Positions 20,554-54,225 of a stretch of 58,001 bases of DNA are shown here, one piece after another. The position numbers and the translations under genes were made by a program. Source of the stretch: an uncultured Pelagibacteraceae bacterium. GTDB lineage: Bacteria > Pseudomonadota > Alphaproteobacteria > Pelagibacterales > Pelagibacteraceae. The notes under the pieces were generated by a model that saw only the letters and a program-made list of their open reading frames with translations, was not told the DNA's origin and made no database searches. The stretch lies in the NCBI GenBank assembly GCA_902595725.1, contig CACJRJ010000005.1:1-58001 (forward strand), written 5' to 3'. Numbering within the stretch: position 1 is the first letter of the stretch; every line of letters starts with the position of its first letter.

Positions 20554-21201
20554 TTAATAAAATATTTTATCTAGTATAAAAGCTGCAGGGACTACAAAAA
20601 TTATCCCATCAATTCTATCTAGTAGTCCGCCATGACCTGGCAATAATTTTCCTGTATCTTTAATTTTAGATTTTCTTTTAAAATAAGAAATAAACAAATC
20701 TCCTACCTGGGATATAAAAGATAAAATTAATGTTAAAAAAACAATTTTATAAAGATTAGCAATAGATATCTCAAATAAAAAAATCAAAAAACAAGGAATT
20801 AATGAAAATAAAAATGATCCAATGCTACCTGATATTGTTTTATTTGGACTAATTTTAGTTAACTTTTTACCTCCTATTGTTTTGCCTACTGCATAACCTC
20901 CTATATCAGAAAATATACATACCAATAAAATATATAACATAGCTTCTTTGGATTTAGAAAAATCAAAAGCAGAATAAGTAAAAAAAATTAAATAAAAAAA
21001 ACTTATTAAATTCACAAAAATAATTGTTACTTTTTTTCTTTTCCATATTTTTTTTACTATATCTTTAAATTCAATGAAGCTAATTGTTGAAGCAATTATT
21101 AATAATAACAACCATGAATATTTATGAAAAAAGAGAGAGAACAATAAGACTAATAATAAAATGATAGAAGTATATATTCTTTTTAATAAGTTTTTATTCA
21201 T
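20554..21201 (-). CDS. cdsA: Phosphatidate cytidylyltransferase
   Basis: Makes CDP-diacylglycerol from CTP and phosphatidic acid, the branch point for phospholipids. The 215 residues form about six membrane segments. The C-terminal signature is clear: SDIGGYAVGKTIGGKKLTKI near 99 and SQVGDLFISYFKRKSKIKD near 165, followed by LLPGHGGLLDRIDGI. The protein is shorter than enterobacterial CdsA (about 285) because the N-terminal membrane part is reduced, which is common in small alphaproteobacterial genomes. It overlaps uppS by one base. Confidence 0.95.
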   Translation of the reverse strand: MNKNLLKRIYTSIILLLVLLFSLFFHKYSWLLLLIIASTISFIEFKDIVKKIWKRKKVTIIFVNLISFFYLIFFTYSAFDFSKSKEAMLYILLVCIFSDIGGYAVGKTIGGKKLTKISPNKTISGSIGSFLFSLIPCFLIFLFEISIANLYKIVFLTLILSFISQVGDLFISYFKRKSKIKDTGKLLPGHGGLLDRIDGIIFVVPAAFILDKIFY

Positions 21202-21875: not shown

Positions 21876-22423
21876 ATTTTCATTATTTCTGTTTCTTTAG
21901 AAATAACTTTTTCATCAATTTTTTTTATCTGGTCGTCTGTTATTGTTTGAATTTTTTTTTCAAACTTTTTTTCATCATCTTCACTAATATCTTTAGATTT
22001 TAATAATTTCTTCAATTCATCATTAGCTTCTCTTCTTATGTTTCTTACTGAAATTTTAGATTTTTCTCCCATAGATTTAATAAGTTTTTTAATTTCAGTT
22101 CTTCTTTCTTCACTTAAATCAGGTATTGGAAGTCTTATGAGCTGTCCATCTATTTGTGGATTTAAACCTAATTCAGATTTTCTAATTGATGAGTCTATTA
22201 AGGAAACATTATTTTGATCCCAAACTTGTATATTTATCATTCTTGGTTCTGGAGTAGTTATGCTTCCAAGTTGATTGATTGGCATTTTTTGACCATAAAC
22301 ATCAACTTTAACAATATCTAACATGTTAGAATTAGCTCTACCTGTTCTCAATGAAGATAATTCTTTAGTAAACACTTCAAAAGTTTTACTCATTTTTTGT
22401 AAATAATTATTTTCGTTAAACAT
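21872..22423 (-). CDS. frr: Ribosome recycling factor
   Basis: Splits the post-termination ribosome together with EF-G. The 183 residues match the family length and contain LSSLRTGRANSNMLDIVKVD near 22, QLGSITTPEPRMINIQVWD near 52, GLNPQIDGQLIRLPIPDLSE near 86 and RRTEIKKLIKSMGE. The start codon overlaps the tsf stop (TAATG). In most bacteria pyrH lies between tsf and frr; here the two abut, so UMP kinase is not encoded at this locus. Confidence 0.97.
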   Translation of the reverse strand: MFNENNYLQKMSKTFEVFTKELSSLRTGRANSNMLDIVKVDVYGQKMPINQLGSITTPEPRMINIQVWDQNNVSLIDSSIRKSELGLNPQIDGQLIRLPIPDLSEERRTEIKKLIKSMGEKSKISVRNIRREANDELKKLLKSKDISEDDEKKFEKKIQTITDDQIKKIDEKVISKETEIMKI

Positions 22424-23274
22424 TAGTCACCAATCTTGATTCTATAGAAATCAATAATTTTTAAATCTTTAAGATCTAATTCTTTTATAATATCCATAAC
22501 TTTTTTTTTTGGTTCCATAACCCATTGTTGTGTCATTAAACTACTTTCCTCTTTGAACTTATTCATTTTACCAGAACTAATTTTTTTTGCTATATCTTCT
22601 GATTTCCCAGAATTTTTGAGTTCTTCGGTAATTAACTCTTGTTCTTTATCCAAAATTTCTTTTTTAATATCACCACTATTTATAGCTATTGGATTCGATG
22701 CAGCAATATGCATGGATAATTGCTTTCCAAATGTATCAATTTTCTCAGATTTTTCATCACTGCTTAATGACGATATAACAGCCAGTTTAGATAAATTATC
22801 TTTTACTACAGTATGCAAATAATAATAATTTTTTGAGTTTTGATGTTGTAAGGTTTTAGACCTTCCTAATGTTATTTTCTCACCAATTTTTGCTATCATA
22901 GAAACCACGTTTTCTTCAACAGTTTTTTCATTTTTCATTTTAGATTTTGTCAATTTTTTTAAATCAGAATTAACTGCATTGTTAATTTCACTCAACTCTT
23001 TAACAAAATTGATAAAATTTTCATTTTTTGCAACAAAATCGGTTTCACAATTTACTTCTAAAACAGAAGTTTTGGCATGATCACCACTTATTGCAATTAC
23101 ACCTTCTTTTGCTTCACGTGACATTTTTTTTGAAGCTTTAGAAATTCCTTTAACTCTAAGAACTTCAATAGCTTTATCAAGATCACCGCCTGACTCATTA
23201 AGTGCTGAACTGCAGTCTTTAAATCCTGCACCAGTCGACTGTCTTAATTGTTTAATTTTTTCTAAATCACTCAT
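22423..23274 (-). CDS. tsf: Translation elongation factor Ts
   Basis: Guanine nucleotide exchange factor for EF-Tu. The 283 residues have the N-terminal UBA-like domain [40 protein letters not shown] near 38, and the core signature [20 protein letters not shown] near 71, followed by the coiled-coil dimerisation region and the C-terminal part with [12 protein letters not shown]. It lies 17 bases after rpsB, the universal rpsB-tsf pairing. Confidence 0.97.
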
Positions 23275-23291: not shown

Positions 23292-24021
23292 TCAAATGTT
23301 CTTTTCTTTAGTGGTTTTTTCTTTTTTTAAATCCAATGTTTCTTTTTTTTGTTCTTTAGCATCATTTTTTTTAGTCGATGCTTCTACAGTTACTGGAATT
23401 TCTTTTTTTGCACTTTCAATTGTTTCTTTAATTAAATTACAATAAAGATCGATCGACCTTCTAGCATCATCATTTCCTGGAATAGGAAAGTTGATACCCT
23501 CAGGATCAGAATTTGTATCTAAAATAGCAATAATAGGTATATTAAGCTTTATTGCCTCTTTGATGGCTAATGATTCATAATTTGTATCAATTACAAATAT
23601 TAGGTCAGGAATTTTTTTCATTTTTGCAATTCCACCTAAGGATTTTTGAAACTAAATCCAAATCTAATTTTTCTAATTTTTTGATTGAATTAGAAATAGT
23701 TCCCCAGTTTGTTAACATACCTCCTAACCAACGATAGTTAACATAATACTGATCGGTTTCTTTAGCAATTTCTGCAATAGCATCAGATGCTTGTTTTTTA
23801 GTTGATATAAAAAGAATTTTGCCATTCTGGCTTATCACTTTATAAATTTCTTCAAGTGCAACATTAATCAATTCTAAAGTTTGAGTTAAATCAATAATAT
23901 GAATTGAATCTCTTTTTCCAAAAATATATTTTTTCATTTTTGGATTCCATCTCAGAGTTTTATGTCCTAAATGGACACCCGCCTCTAATAATTGTTGAAT
24001 AGTTATACTAGGTATTTTCAT
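23292..24021 (-). pseudogene. rpsB: Small ribosomal subunit protein S2, interrupted by a frameshifting internal deletion
   Basis: S2 binds the 30S back side near S1 and is needed for initiation. The first part starts at the ATG at 24021 ([21 protein letters not shown]) and runs well to [25 protein letters not shown], then goes out of frame at about 23646 and stops at 23605. The second part continues in another frame with [28 protein letters not shown] and [16 protein letters not shown] to 23292. Compared with E. coli S2, about 20 residues of the helical hairpin between the two parts are absent and the join is off by a non-multiple of three. The conserved parts are otherwise intact, and S2 is essential, so assembly or sequencing error is likelier than true loss. 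The C-terminal tail is Lys/Glu rich. Confidence 0.85.
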
Positions 24022-24151: not shown

Positions 24152-27100
24152 TCAATTAATTTGTATAAGAATTCCTTCTTTTTTTAGCAAATTTATTGAA
24201 TTTCTATCAACTTTTCTACTTTTTTTAAGTTTGAAAGTTAATAATTTTTGATCATCCTTTACATTTAAAATAACTTCTGTATTACCATCATGATTAAAAT
24301 TTTCCAAAGTGTTAATTTGCTCAATCTTATTTAAAGTTAATTCTAATTTAGAAATTGGTTTATTATATAGATCTCTTATCAAAACAATTTTATTTACATT
24401 AATTCTTCTAAATCTATTTTCATCATTAGAAAAATTTTTATTTAAAGTGATTAATAATGAATTCCCCTCTATTAAAATATTCCTATTTGATTCTAAAACT
24501 TCTGAAAATATAAAAAGTTCAAACACACCAGAAAGATCAGTGAGTTTGATAACCGCATAAGAATTTCCTTTTGAGGTTTTTCTTTCTTGTATTTTTAAAA
24601 GTGTTGCAGCAATATTTGATTGGTTATTTGATTTACTTTTTAAAAAATCATTATAATTTAAAATTTTATAATCGTTAAAAATTTCCTTATACTGATTTAT
24701 TGGATGATCAGACATAAAAAATCCTATTGATTCAAATTCTTTGGATAATCTTTCTTCAAATTTCCAATCATCAATATTAAATATTATATTACTATTTTTT
24801 GCTGATTCTGATTCATCCATTTCAAACAAATCAATTTGGTTTGCTATTTTATTTTCGAATATGTTTTTAGATTTCAATATTAAATTTGGTATTGAATTGT
24901 ATATAGATTGTCTATTATTATTTAAATTATCAAAAGCACCAGCTTTAACTAATCCTTCTAACTGAAGTTTGTTTATATCTTTAGGGTTCACTCTATTTAT
25001 AAAGTCATTAATTGTTTTAAATTTTCCGTTTTTCTCTCTTTCATTAACAATGTTTGAGATTGCATCAAAACCAACACTTTTGATAGCTCCCATTGCATAG
25101 TAAAAGTTATCTTTGATTGATCTAAAATCAGCATAACATTCATTTATATCTGGCCTAATAATTTTAATATTTAACCTTCTAAGCTCTTCGTAAAATTCAC
25201 TTAGTTTGTTCTGGTTAGAAATATCCATTGTCATTGAAGCTGCAAAAAATTCATTTGGAAAATAAGTTTTTAAATATGCGGTCTGATATGCAATTATTGC
25301 ATATGCAGCTGCATGACTTTTGTTAAAACCATATTCGGCAAATGGTTCTATTTTTAAAAATATACTTGCAGCTATTTCTTTATTTATTCCGTTTCTTACC
25401 GCACCTTCTATAAATCTTTGTTTTTGTTTTTCTAGTTCTGCTCTCTTTTTTTTTCCCATAGCTCTTCTTAAAATGTCAGCCTCACTTGCTGTAAAACCTG
25501 AAAGTTTTTGAGCTATCTGCATTACTTGTTCTTGATAAATTATAACTCCATATGTTGGCTTTAATATTTCTTCTAATTTTGGATGCAAATAATCAGGTTC
25601 AAGTTTGCCGTGTTTACAGTCGTTGTATGTTGGTATGTTGCTCATTGGTCCAGGTCTATAAAGTGCAACTAAGGCAATAATATCTTCAAGATGATTGGGT
25701 TTCATATTCATTAGTGCGTCTCTCATTCCTGAGCTTTCTAATTGAAACAATCCAACAGTATTTCCAGATGAAAGTAGGTCAAAGACTTTATTATCATCAT
25801 ATTTAATATTTTCTATTTTAAATGATTTTTCTTTTTTATTTATTAATTTTTGTGTTTTATTAATTACTGTTAAAGTTTTTAGGCCTAAAAAATCAAATTT
25901 AATTAACCCTGCACTTTCTGCTGAGTACATATCAAATTGAGTTGAGGGAAGTAATAATTCTGAAGATTGATCCTTATATAAAGGAACTGAATCGGTTAAT
26001 TTTTTATCTGCAATAACAACACCTGCAGCATGTGTTGCCACATTTCTATTTAAACCTTCGAGCTTAAGAGATAATTCAATTAATTTTTTTACCTTAGTAT
26101 CTTCTTTTATTAATTTTTGAAGACGAGGCTCATTGCTTATACATTCACTTAAACTTTGAGGTCTTGATGGATCAAAAGGTATCATTTTTGATATACTATC
26201 AACATAACCATAAGATAATCCAATTACTCTTCCTACATCTCTAATTACCATTCTGGCTTTAAGTTTTCCGAAAGTTATTATGTGTGCTACACTATCCTTA
26301 TATCTTTTACTTAAATAATCAAAAACCAAATCTCTTTTTTCTTCACAAAAATCAATATCAAAGTCAGGCATAGATATACGATCGGGATTTAAGAATCTTT
26401 CAAAAATTAAATTAAATTTGATTGGATCTAAATCAGTAATAGATAAACACCAAGCAACCAAAGAGCCTGCTCCTGATCCTCTTCCTGGGCCTACGGGAAT
26501 ATCATTATTCTTTGCCCACTTTATATAATCAGAAACAATTAGAAAATAACTAGAATATTTCATTTCTATAATTATTTTTAATTCATGATCTAATCTCTCT
26601 TTATAAATTAAATACTTCGGATGAGATTTTATATTTTCTTCTTTTATATTAAAATTATTTATAAATTTAGAAATTAAACCTGCTTCACTATCAGAAATTA
26701 ATGAATCATCTGCCTTCATACTTTTATCAGAACTTATATTTGGAAGTATTGGCTTAGAAGTTGTCGGTCTAAAAGAACATCTTAACGGTAATTTAAAATT
26801 ATTTTCTAAAGCCTCGGGAAGATCAGAAAATAATTCACACATTTCCTTTGATGATTTAAAATAATGTTGATCAGAAAATGATATTCTATTTTTATCATTA
26901 AGATATGTTTTATTACCGATGCATATTAAAGCTTCATGAGCATTATGCATAGATTTATCCAAATAATAAACTTCATGGGTTGCGATAATCGGTAGATTAA
27001 ATTTGTTCGATAAATTTAAATTATAATTTTCAAAAGATTTTTCATTCAGATCATTATGTCTTTGAATCTCAATATAGAAATTGTCTTTGTAAGTTTCTTT

Positions 27101-27574
27101 AATAGTTTTATATATTTCTTCAATTTCAGAAAATTTACCTTTGTTAAATAATTTTCCTATTAGTCCATTAATAGAACCTGATAACAATATTATATCATTT
27201 GGTTTATCAAGAAGATCTTTAAAGCTACATTGGGGTTCAAGATTTTTATCATTATCAAGATATGATTTGGAAGATAGTTCCATAATTCTTTTATACCCAC
27301 TTTCTGATTTCGCAATTAAAGATAATAAGCCAACATCATTTTTGAAGTTAAATAATATCTGTGTTCCAATAATTGGTTGAGTACCTGATTTTGATAAGTT
27401 TTCTGAAAATTCTAATGAACCACACAAATTAGATGTGTCAGACAAACCAGCAGATTTAATATTATTTTCACGACAGTACTCTTTTAAATCGCTGATTTTA
27501 ACAGCTCCTTCACATATAGAATACTGGGTATGAATTTTAAGATGATTAAAATTATTTTTATTTGATTCTTGCAT
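24152..27574 (-). CDS. dnaE: DNA polymerase III subunit alpha
   Basis: Catalytic subunit of the replicative polymerase. The 1140 residues are in order: PHP domain (about 10-270), polymerase palm/thumb/fingers (about 290-810), then the helix-hairpin-helix, OB-fold and C-terminal parts. The palm Asp residues are Asp404 and Asp406 in MPDFDIDFCE, and Asp561 in IKFDFLGLKT; GPGRGSGAGSLVAWCL is near 362. The PHP domain has lost metal ligands (Lys13 where a His is usual, Ser-Asp-Thr at 45-47 where Thr-Asp-His is usual), so PHP exonuclease activity is not expected. The start lies inside lolD by 17 bases. rpsB, transcribed next, has its own 130-base upstream region. Confidence 0.98.
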   Translation of the reverse strand: MQESNKNNFNHLKIHTQYSICEGAVKISDLKEYCRENNIKSAGLSDTSNLCGSLEFSENLSKSGTQPIIGTQILFNFKNDVGLLSLIAKSESGYKRIMELSSKSYLDNDKNLEPQCSFKDLLDKPNDIILLSGSINGLIGKLFNKGKFSEIEEIYKTIKETYKDNFYIEIQRHNDLNEKSFENYNLNLSNKFNLPIIATHEVYYLDKSMHNAHEALICIGNKTYLNDKNRISFSDQHYFKSSKEMCELFSDLPEALENNFKLPLRCSFRPTTSKPILPNISSDKSMKADDSLISDSEAGLISKFINNFNIKEENIKSHPKYLIYKERLDHELKIIIEMKYSSYFLIVSDYIKWAKNNDIPVGPGRGSGAGSLVAWCLSITDLDPIKFNLIFERFLNPDRISMPDFDIDFCEEKRDLVFDYLSKRYKDSVAHIITFGKLKARMVIRDVGRVIGLSYGYVDSISKMIPFDPSRPQSLSECISNEPRLQKLIKEDTKVKKLIELSLKLEGLNRNVATHAAGVVIADKKLTDSVPLYKDQSSELLLPSTQFDMYSAESAGLIKFDFLGLKTLTVINKTQKLINKKEKSFKIENIKYDDNKVFDLLSSGNTVGLFQLESSGMRDALMNMKPNHLEDIIALVALYRPGPMSNIPTYNDCKHGKLEPDYLHPKLEEILKPTYGVIIYQEQVMQIAQKLSGFTASEADILRRAMGKKKRAELEKQKQRFIEGAVRNGINKEIAASIFLKIEPFAEYGFNKSHAAAYAIIAYQTAYLKTYFPNEFFAASMTMDISNQNKLSEFYEELRRLNIKIIRPDINECYADFRSIKDNFYYAMGAIKSVGFDAISNIVNEREKNGKFKTINDFINRVNPKDINKLQLEGLVKAGAFDNLNNNRQSIYNSIPNLILKSKNIFENKIANQIDLFEMDESESAKNSNIIFNIDDWKFEERLSKEFESIGFFMSDHPINQYKEIFNDYKILNYNDFLKSKSNNQSNIAATLLKIQERKTSKGNSYAVIKLTDLSGVFELFIFSEVLESNRNILIEGNSLLITLNKNFSNDENRFRRINVNKIVLIRDLYNKPISKLELTLNKIEQINTLENFNHDGNTEVILNVKDDQKLLTFKLKKSRKVDRNSINLLKKEGILIQIN

Positions 27575-53802: not shown

Positions 53803-53811
53803 AAAATATTA

Positions 53812-53896
53812 TGGTAGGCGAGAAAGGACTCGAACCTTCACAGCTTGCACTATTGGTTCCTAAGACCAACGCGTCTACCAATTCCGCCACTCGCCC
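53812..53896 (-). tRNA. tRNA-Leu (TAG)
   Basis: An 85-base class II tRNA on the minus strand. The acceptor GGGCGAG pairs with CTCGCCT (one G-T pair), the D-arm has TGGCGGAATTGGTAGACGC, the anticodon loop CTTAGGA between TTGGT and ACCAA gives anticodon TAG, a long variable arm follows, and the T-arm is AAGGTTCGAGTCCTT. Discriminator A and CCA are encoded. It may be co-transcribed with tig. Confidence 0.98.
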
Positions 53897-53908
53897 AATT
53901 TAAAAGGT

Positions 53909-53936
53909 TTTATATATTATAGATCTCATTTGTCCA
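53909..53936 (-). promoter_or_regulatory. Probable promoter of tRNA-Leu (and tig)
   Basis: On the minus strand TGGACA (53931-53936, five of six to -35) and TATAAA (53909-53914, five of six to -10) are 16 bases apart and lie 13 bases before the tRNA-Leu 5' end. A second TATAAT overlaps upstream. The region 53897-53976 is shared with the divergent DUF1289 gene. Confidence 0.45.
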
Positions 53937-53976
53937 ATTAGAATAATAGTGTAAAACATGATAAATATTAAAAAAA

Positions 53977-54225
53977 ATGATTGTTTCACCTTGTATAAGT
54001 ATTTGTAAGACAGACCCTGTTACCGGTTACTGTTATGGTTGTGGAAGAAGTAATGAAGACAAAAAATTGTGGAAGGATGAAAAAACTACCGATGAATGGA
54101 AAAAAAATAATCTTTTAGAAATTGAAAGTAGATTAAAGGGTTGGCAACTAGAAAGTTTTAAAGAATCTTATAATCATAAAGTTAAAAGTGGTATTTCGTT
54201 ATTCAAAAAAAAGAATTTTAAATAA
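53977..54225 (+). CDS. DUF1289 family small Cys-rich protein
   Basis: A protein of 82 residues with the DUF1289 pattern: SPCISICKTDPVTGYCYGCG places Cys6, Cys10, Cys19 and Cys22, followed by RSNEDKKLWKDEKTTDEW. The four Cys residues suggest a metal or Fe-S site. The function of DUF1289 proteins is not established. It is divergent from tRNA-Leu/tig and three bases before the uracil-DNA glycosylase gene, so the two are probably co-transcribed. No Shine-Dalgarno sequence is visible; an A-run precedes the ATG. Confidence 0.85.
   Translation: MIVSPCISICKTDPVTGYCYGCGRSNEDKKLWKDEKTTDEWKKNNLLEIESRLKGWQLESFKESYNHKVKSGISLFKKKNFK

Follow-up and report, generated by a model that had tools for sequence, protein, structure and literature searches.

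The rpsB gene in the window, by which we mean the whole stretch of DNA that was analysed (58,001 bases, the complete contig C5 of a SAR11 (Pelagibacter) assembly), is split by a frameshifting deletion, and this lesion is most likely not a real biological feature. We consider it probable that the deletion is an artefact of whole-genome amplification or of assembly and that the living lineage does not carry it. The initial annotation had offered an assembly or base-calling artefact as one alternative, and this is the explanation that the evidence now supports best: the lesion is absent from the relatives measured, it is isolated within the part of the assembly that was tested, and the two halves of the gene show no decay.

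The break in rpsB

The broken gene and its intact neighbours lie on the minus strand, in the following arrangement.

22423..23274, minus strand: ORF of 283 aa that we take to be tsf (EF-Ts), intact and next to rpsB in the usual rpsB-tsf order; two relatives align with it over its whole length
23292..23648, minus strand: 3' part of rpsB, from the end of the second hairpin helix (Ser-Leu-Gly-Gly onward) to the stop, in the other frame; PF00318 positions 136-215, E 2.6e-31
23640..23652, minus strand: deletion junction GTTTCAAAAATCC, with 62 nt of the relatives absent and the break placed to within about 1-4 nt
23649..24021, minus strand: 5' part of rpsB, the N-terminal half of S2, ending at Val-Ser within the first coiled-coil helix; PF00318 positions 1-113, E 1.0e-47
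24152..27574, minus strand: ORF of 1140 aa, presumably a dnaE-like gene (DNA polymerase III alpha subunit), the intact upstream neighbour, with residues 1-1139 aligned with a relative

The 5' part begins with an ATG at 24021 and its frame stays open as far as 23605, whereas the stop codon of the 3' part is at 23292-23294; the junction as written above is the complement of 23640-23652. In its own frame the 5' part is 84% and 87% identical to two relatives, and across relatives its identity to them reaches up to 88%. The PF00318 profile matches the gene in two pieces, in frames -3 and -1, with about 22 profile positions between them, which confirms the proposal of the initial annotation that the two parts of S2 are in different frames. 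Both pieces score above the curated cut-off of 26.1 bits (161.2 and 107.8 bits) and the gene stands before tsf, so in family membership and in position it resembles the rpsB of other SAR11/Pelagibacter genomes; it differs from them in that, instead of one uninterrupted frame with a full coiled-coil hairpin, it has two frames and is 62 nt short within the hairpin.

The size of the loss was measured between two conserved motifs of the hairpin region, LTNW and LGG. This stretch is 85 nt long in the window gene (84 nt as printed, the third base of the closing Gly codon being omitted) and 147 nt long in all 91 measurable loci of relatives. By this comparison, the deletion is 62 nt (3x20+2) and lies within the coiled-coil hairpin, in agreement with the earlier proposal of a frameshifting loss of 3n+2 bases that took about 20 residues from the hairpin. 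In the alignment, the S2 coiled coil loses its tip and the greater part of its second helix.

The initial annotation had further proposed that a CAAAAA microhomology was present at both flanks of the deletion, and this part of it is unsupported. On the left side, the residue that follows Ser/Ala is Glu in all 84 loci that matched the pattern (the other 28 of the 112 loci were unmatched and were dropped); because of this, a CAAAAA there would imply Lys in place of Glu, which 0 of the 84 show, and the six-base form of the slip was rejected. On the right side, 90 of 91 loci have Arg ahead of Ser/Ala-Leu-Gly-Gly and one has Lys, so that Gln-Lys-Ser there requires the Arg-to-Lys change alone. A six-base repeat at the junction is thus unlikely. 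On the most economical reading of the codons, GTTTC(A) would be sequence of the left flank, and CAAAAATCC sequence of the right flank in which Lys has replaced Arg. Since the left flank encodes Glu, about 1 to 4 bases would remain common to both flanks (from C up to TTCA), depending on the codons of the unbroken form.

S2 genes of related genomes

The comparison of hairpin lengths drew on 112 loci, 91 of which have the LTNW and LGG motifs, although some of the 91 are possibly the same genome under two handles. By our reading, the 21 loci that fall outside the measurement are both copies of the window gene, one frame-broken locus (L070), and 18 loci from another family of the order, whose motif differs from LTNW...LGG. 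The initial annotation had called for a comparison with the rpsB of close relatives; as none of the 91 measurable loci falls short of 147 nt, a natural short hairpin in relatives is ruled out.

Genome surveys gave the same picture. In the first, an S2 match was found in 45 of 61 genomes, and each of the 44 other than the window genome is full-length and uninterrupted; one of them, G007, has a small extra piece at a contig end in addition to its full-length match. In the second, which covered the family and was judged from match counts and best E-values per genome, with outliers then examined, S2 was matched in 289 of 397 genomes and in 127 of the 140 of good quality. Among the 289 S2-bearing genomes, the window genome alone has two adjacent S2 pieces in two frames. 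Two S2 matches were found in four family genomes (G000, G120, G222, and G245): G120, with 6% contamination, is the only one of the 289 with two whole copies, the second match in G222 is under the cut-off, and the two pieces in G245 come from different parts of S2 and lie on separate contigs. Besides G000, the best S2 match was unusually weak in G246, G083, G195, G323, and G245. The S2 genes of G195, G083, and G245 looked short because their matches extend to contig ends. In G246 (L161), rpsB joins, in inverted orientation, sequence equivalent to window positions 20593-20705, about 3 kb away, and in G323 (L164) it joins, in direct orientation, sequence equivalent to 19207-18776, about 4.5 kb away; both look like chimeric contig ends of the type produced by multiple displacement amplification (MDA).

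As a separate observation, 13 of the 140 good-quality family genomes have no S2 match (e.g., G208, G224, and G248), and some of these are 94-96% complete. Assembly gaps may take in rpsB more often than expected.

Both halves of the window gene are under purifying selection and show no neutral decay, although they have evolved faster than those of most relatives. Compared with 50 relatives, the window gene has a median pN/pS of 0.146 in the 5' part and 0.157 in the 3' part, whereas relatives compared with one another give 0.078 and 0.099. The 50 were the usable loci, those with a differing part length or without the motif having been dropped, and the comparison of relatives with one another was restricted to pairs with pS above 0.4. 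By median pN, the window gene ranks 6 of 51 for the 5' part and 2 of 51 for the 3' part, and other fast-evolving S2 loci include L035, L026, L081, and L102. Because both halves are far from neutral, the deletion is either very young or not biological. The absence of sequence decay is what an artefact would leave; a very young real mutation would look alike.

Assembly quality and amplification chemistry

The assembly comprises 1,081,352 bases in 43 contigs and is 84.36% complete and 0.04% contaminated. Its genes were compared with those of a complete relative, G012 (861 ORFs from 900 kb of its 1.34 Mb), and a clear counterpart was defined by a best match with E at most 1e-20 and identity of at least 45%, the remaining ORFs being dropped. 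On 454 kb of the assembly, 272 G012 proteins could be tested in this way: 264 are whole, 7 are partial, and 1, rpsB, is frame-broken. Four of the partial genes are at the end of a stretch or contig, and the three internal ones have open frames without a piece in another frame. Generally low assembly quality is thus ruled out as the source of the break. For comparison, the rates per 100 kb in a benchmark of the GORG-Tropics single-cell workflow are 1.5 for misassemblies, 3.0 for indels, and 5.0 for mismatches (PMC11247762), and by these figures the present assembly looks cleaner.

When the ORFs of the window itself were compared with those of G012 and G009, rpsB was the sole gene matched in two frames, apart from 53811-54201, where a 138-aa ORF of a relative matches in three frames. 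A tRNA at 53815-53896 on the minus strand lies under part of this match, and we rejected the region as a second broken gene; the relative's ORF is probably spurious, at least in its first part.

The genome is probably a single-amplified genome. The nearest named relatives are SAR11 (Pelagibacteraceae), and 73 of the 80 named loci that were kept bear AG- or AH- isolate names, which we take to be single-cell names, some such titles being prefixed 'MAG:'. If this is so, a normal single-copy SAR11 rpsB would have acquired the 62-nt deletion in the test tube or in the assembler. In amplification, the deletion would come from a join within one strand, a 3' end annealing again to its own sequence only a short distance further on; an assembler error would have the same appearance. 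A single event of this kind, hitting rpsB in one out of hundreds of genomes, calls for no biological explanation, and it is from rates that we argue for an artefact.

Direct chimeric joins of MDA (phi29) and indels of single-cell assemblies resemble the window deletion as same-strand joins that delete the intervening sequence, with few shared bases also likely at the window junction. However, the span is very short here (62 nt, with probably 1-4 shared bases), and most MDA chimeras are inverted. In the MDA of one E. coli cell, 475 chimeras were described, 406 of them inverted and 69 direct (PMC1855051), and in one sample of another study direct chimeras were about a tenth as frequent as inverted ones (585,997 versus 6,363,739; PMC6515389). 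Given these published figures, a direct join that spans 62 nt and shares few bases is uncommon within the class described.

Several points count against the artefact. Direct joins of less than 10 kb are rare (11 of the 475 chimeras, although 90.9% of direct joins of less than 10 kb shared bases; PMC1855051), and the probable overlap of 1-4 nt at the junction is shorter than the overlaps reported for inverted chimeras, which mostly measure 5-8 nt, 6 being the commonest length (PMC4595205). In the benchmark of the WGA-X method paper, the small genome, that of P. marinus, had the fewest assembly errors (PMC5519541). The single frame-broken gene among 272 is itself below what the published benchmark suggests, and the window S2 has evolved faster than that of most relatives compared (ranks 6 and 2 of 51). 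A long near-perfect inverted repeat of the kind typical of MDA was looked for in the window and none was found; the four pairs listed are of 24-39 nt with 77-88% identity. Apart from these points, a phage source of the junction was rejected, with one record giving a 50-nt match.

Alternative readings and the function of S2

Short of an artefact, the deletion could be real and very recent, carried by the cell that was sampled or by a minority of its population. We consider this unlikely, although it is the least strained of the alternatives to an artefact: the lethal or nearly lethal mutant would live on inherited ribosomes, or the deletion would be in one genome copy of a dividing cell, and the clean junction, the two undecayed halves, and the position of rpsB as the sole frame-broken gene of 272 would all be expected. 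S2 is held to be essential. The gene is present in 127 of the 140 good-quality family genomes, and the part that is hit here, the coiled-coil domain (residues 110-150 in E. coli), is enough to recruit S1 to the ribosome (PMC3296737). It also seems to us improbable, compared with the published rate of artefacts, that a new lethal event would be caught in the one cell that was picked. The 84% completeness of the assembly leaves room for another explanation, an intact second rpsB in the unsequenced part of the genome, which would make the window copy a dispensable duplicate. The initial annotation had suggested a search for such a copy: a PF00318 profile search of the 84%-complete assembly gave the window gene alone, with no intact second copy, and a DNA search with the intact hairpin region of a relative gave the window site and 43 short weak matches (best E 1.1e-4), which we take to be chance. 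In addition, the window copy is in the usual place before tsf, and two full-length copies occur in only one contaminated genome of the 289 S2-bearing genomes of the family (G120). A second rpsB is therefore very unlikely.

Lower still do we rate a working S2 with a shortened hairpin, made by +1 frameshifting on the CAAAAA run or by translating the 3' part separately from ATG 23621. On the one hand, both halves are under purifying selection, and ATG 23621 is preceded by a Shine-Dalgarno-like AGGTGG that ends 10 nt before it. On the other hand, AGGTGG belongs to the conserved Leu-Gly-Gly codons and is thus no special signal, and the run offers five A's only, a weak slip site. Neither a short hairpin in the relatives measured nor another such split in the genomes surveyed was seen, and we regard this reading as highly improbable.

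The most novel claim that could be made, that some SAR11 lineage manages with an S2 missing half of the coiled-coil hairpin, made either as two polypeptides or by frameshifting, is one to which we give next to no credence. If it were true, S1 would be held to the SAR11 ribosome differently or not at all, and a deletion that is real and tolerated would call into question whether S1 needs the S2 coiled coil to stay on the ribosome. In the literature on frameshifts and pseudogenes in SAR11, rpsB appears in no title among the matches listed.

Caution is called for in such cases: essential genes can appear broken in single-cell and draft assemblies, and without the reads a break does not support an inference of gene loss. 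Damage that resembles artefacts occurs in this operon in related assemblies too, which favours an artefact in the window. Besides the chimeric joins of G246 and G323, a frame break of rpsB is seen in another SAR11 assembly, AG-365-N15 (L070), although there the gene (about 246-1062) has one extra base in a run of A, as opposed to the 62-nt loss in the window. The adjoining tsf of the same assembly (about 1065-1912) is also frame-broken, and both breaks are probably sequencing or assembly errors. Across 80 named SAR11 loci, rpsB and its neighbouring genes were frame-broken in 3 of 400 instances, two of which are these genes of AG-365-N15. The third is a dnaE-like gene of AG-899-G03 (L093, about 2-2846), which changes frame near its end.
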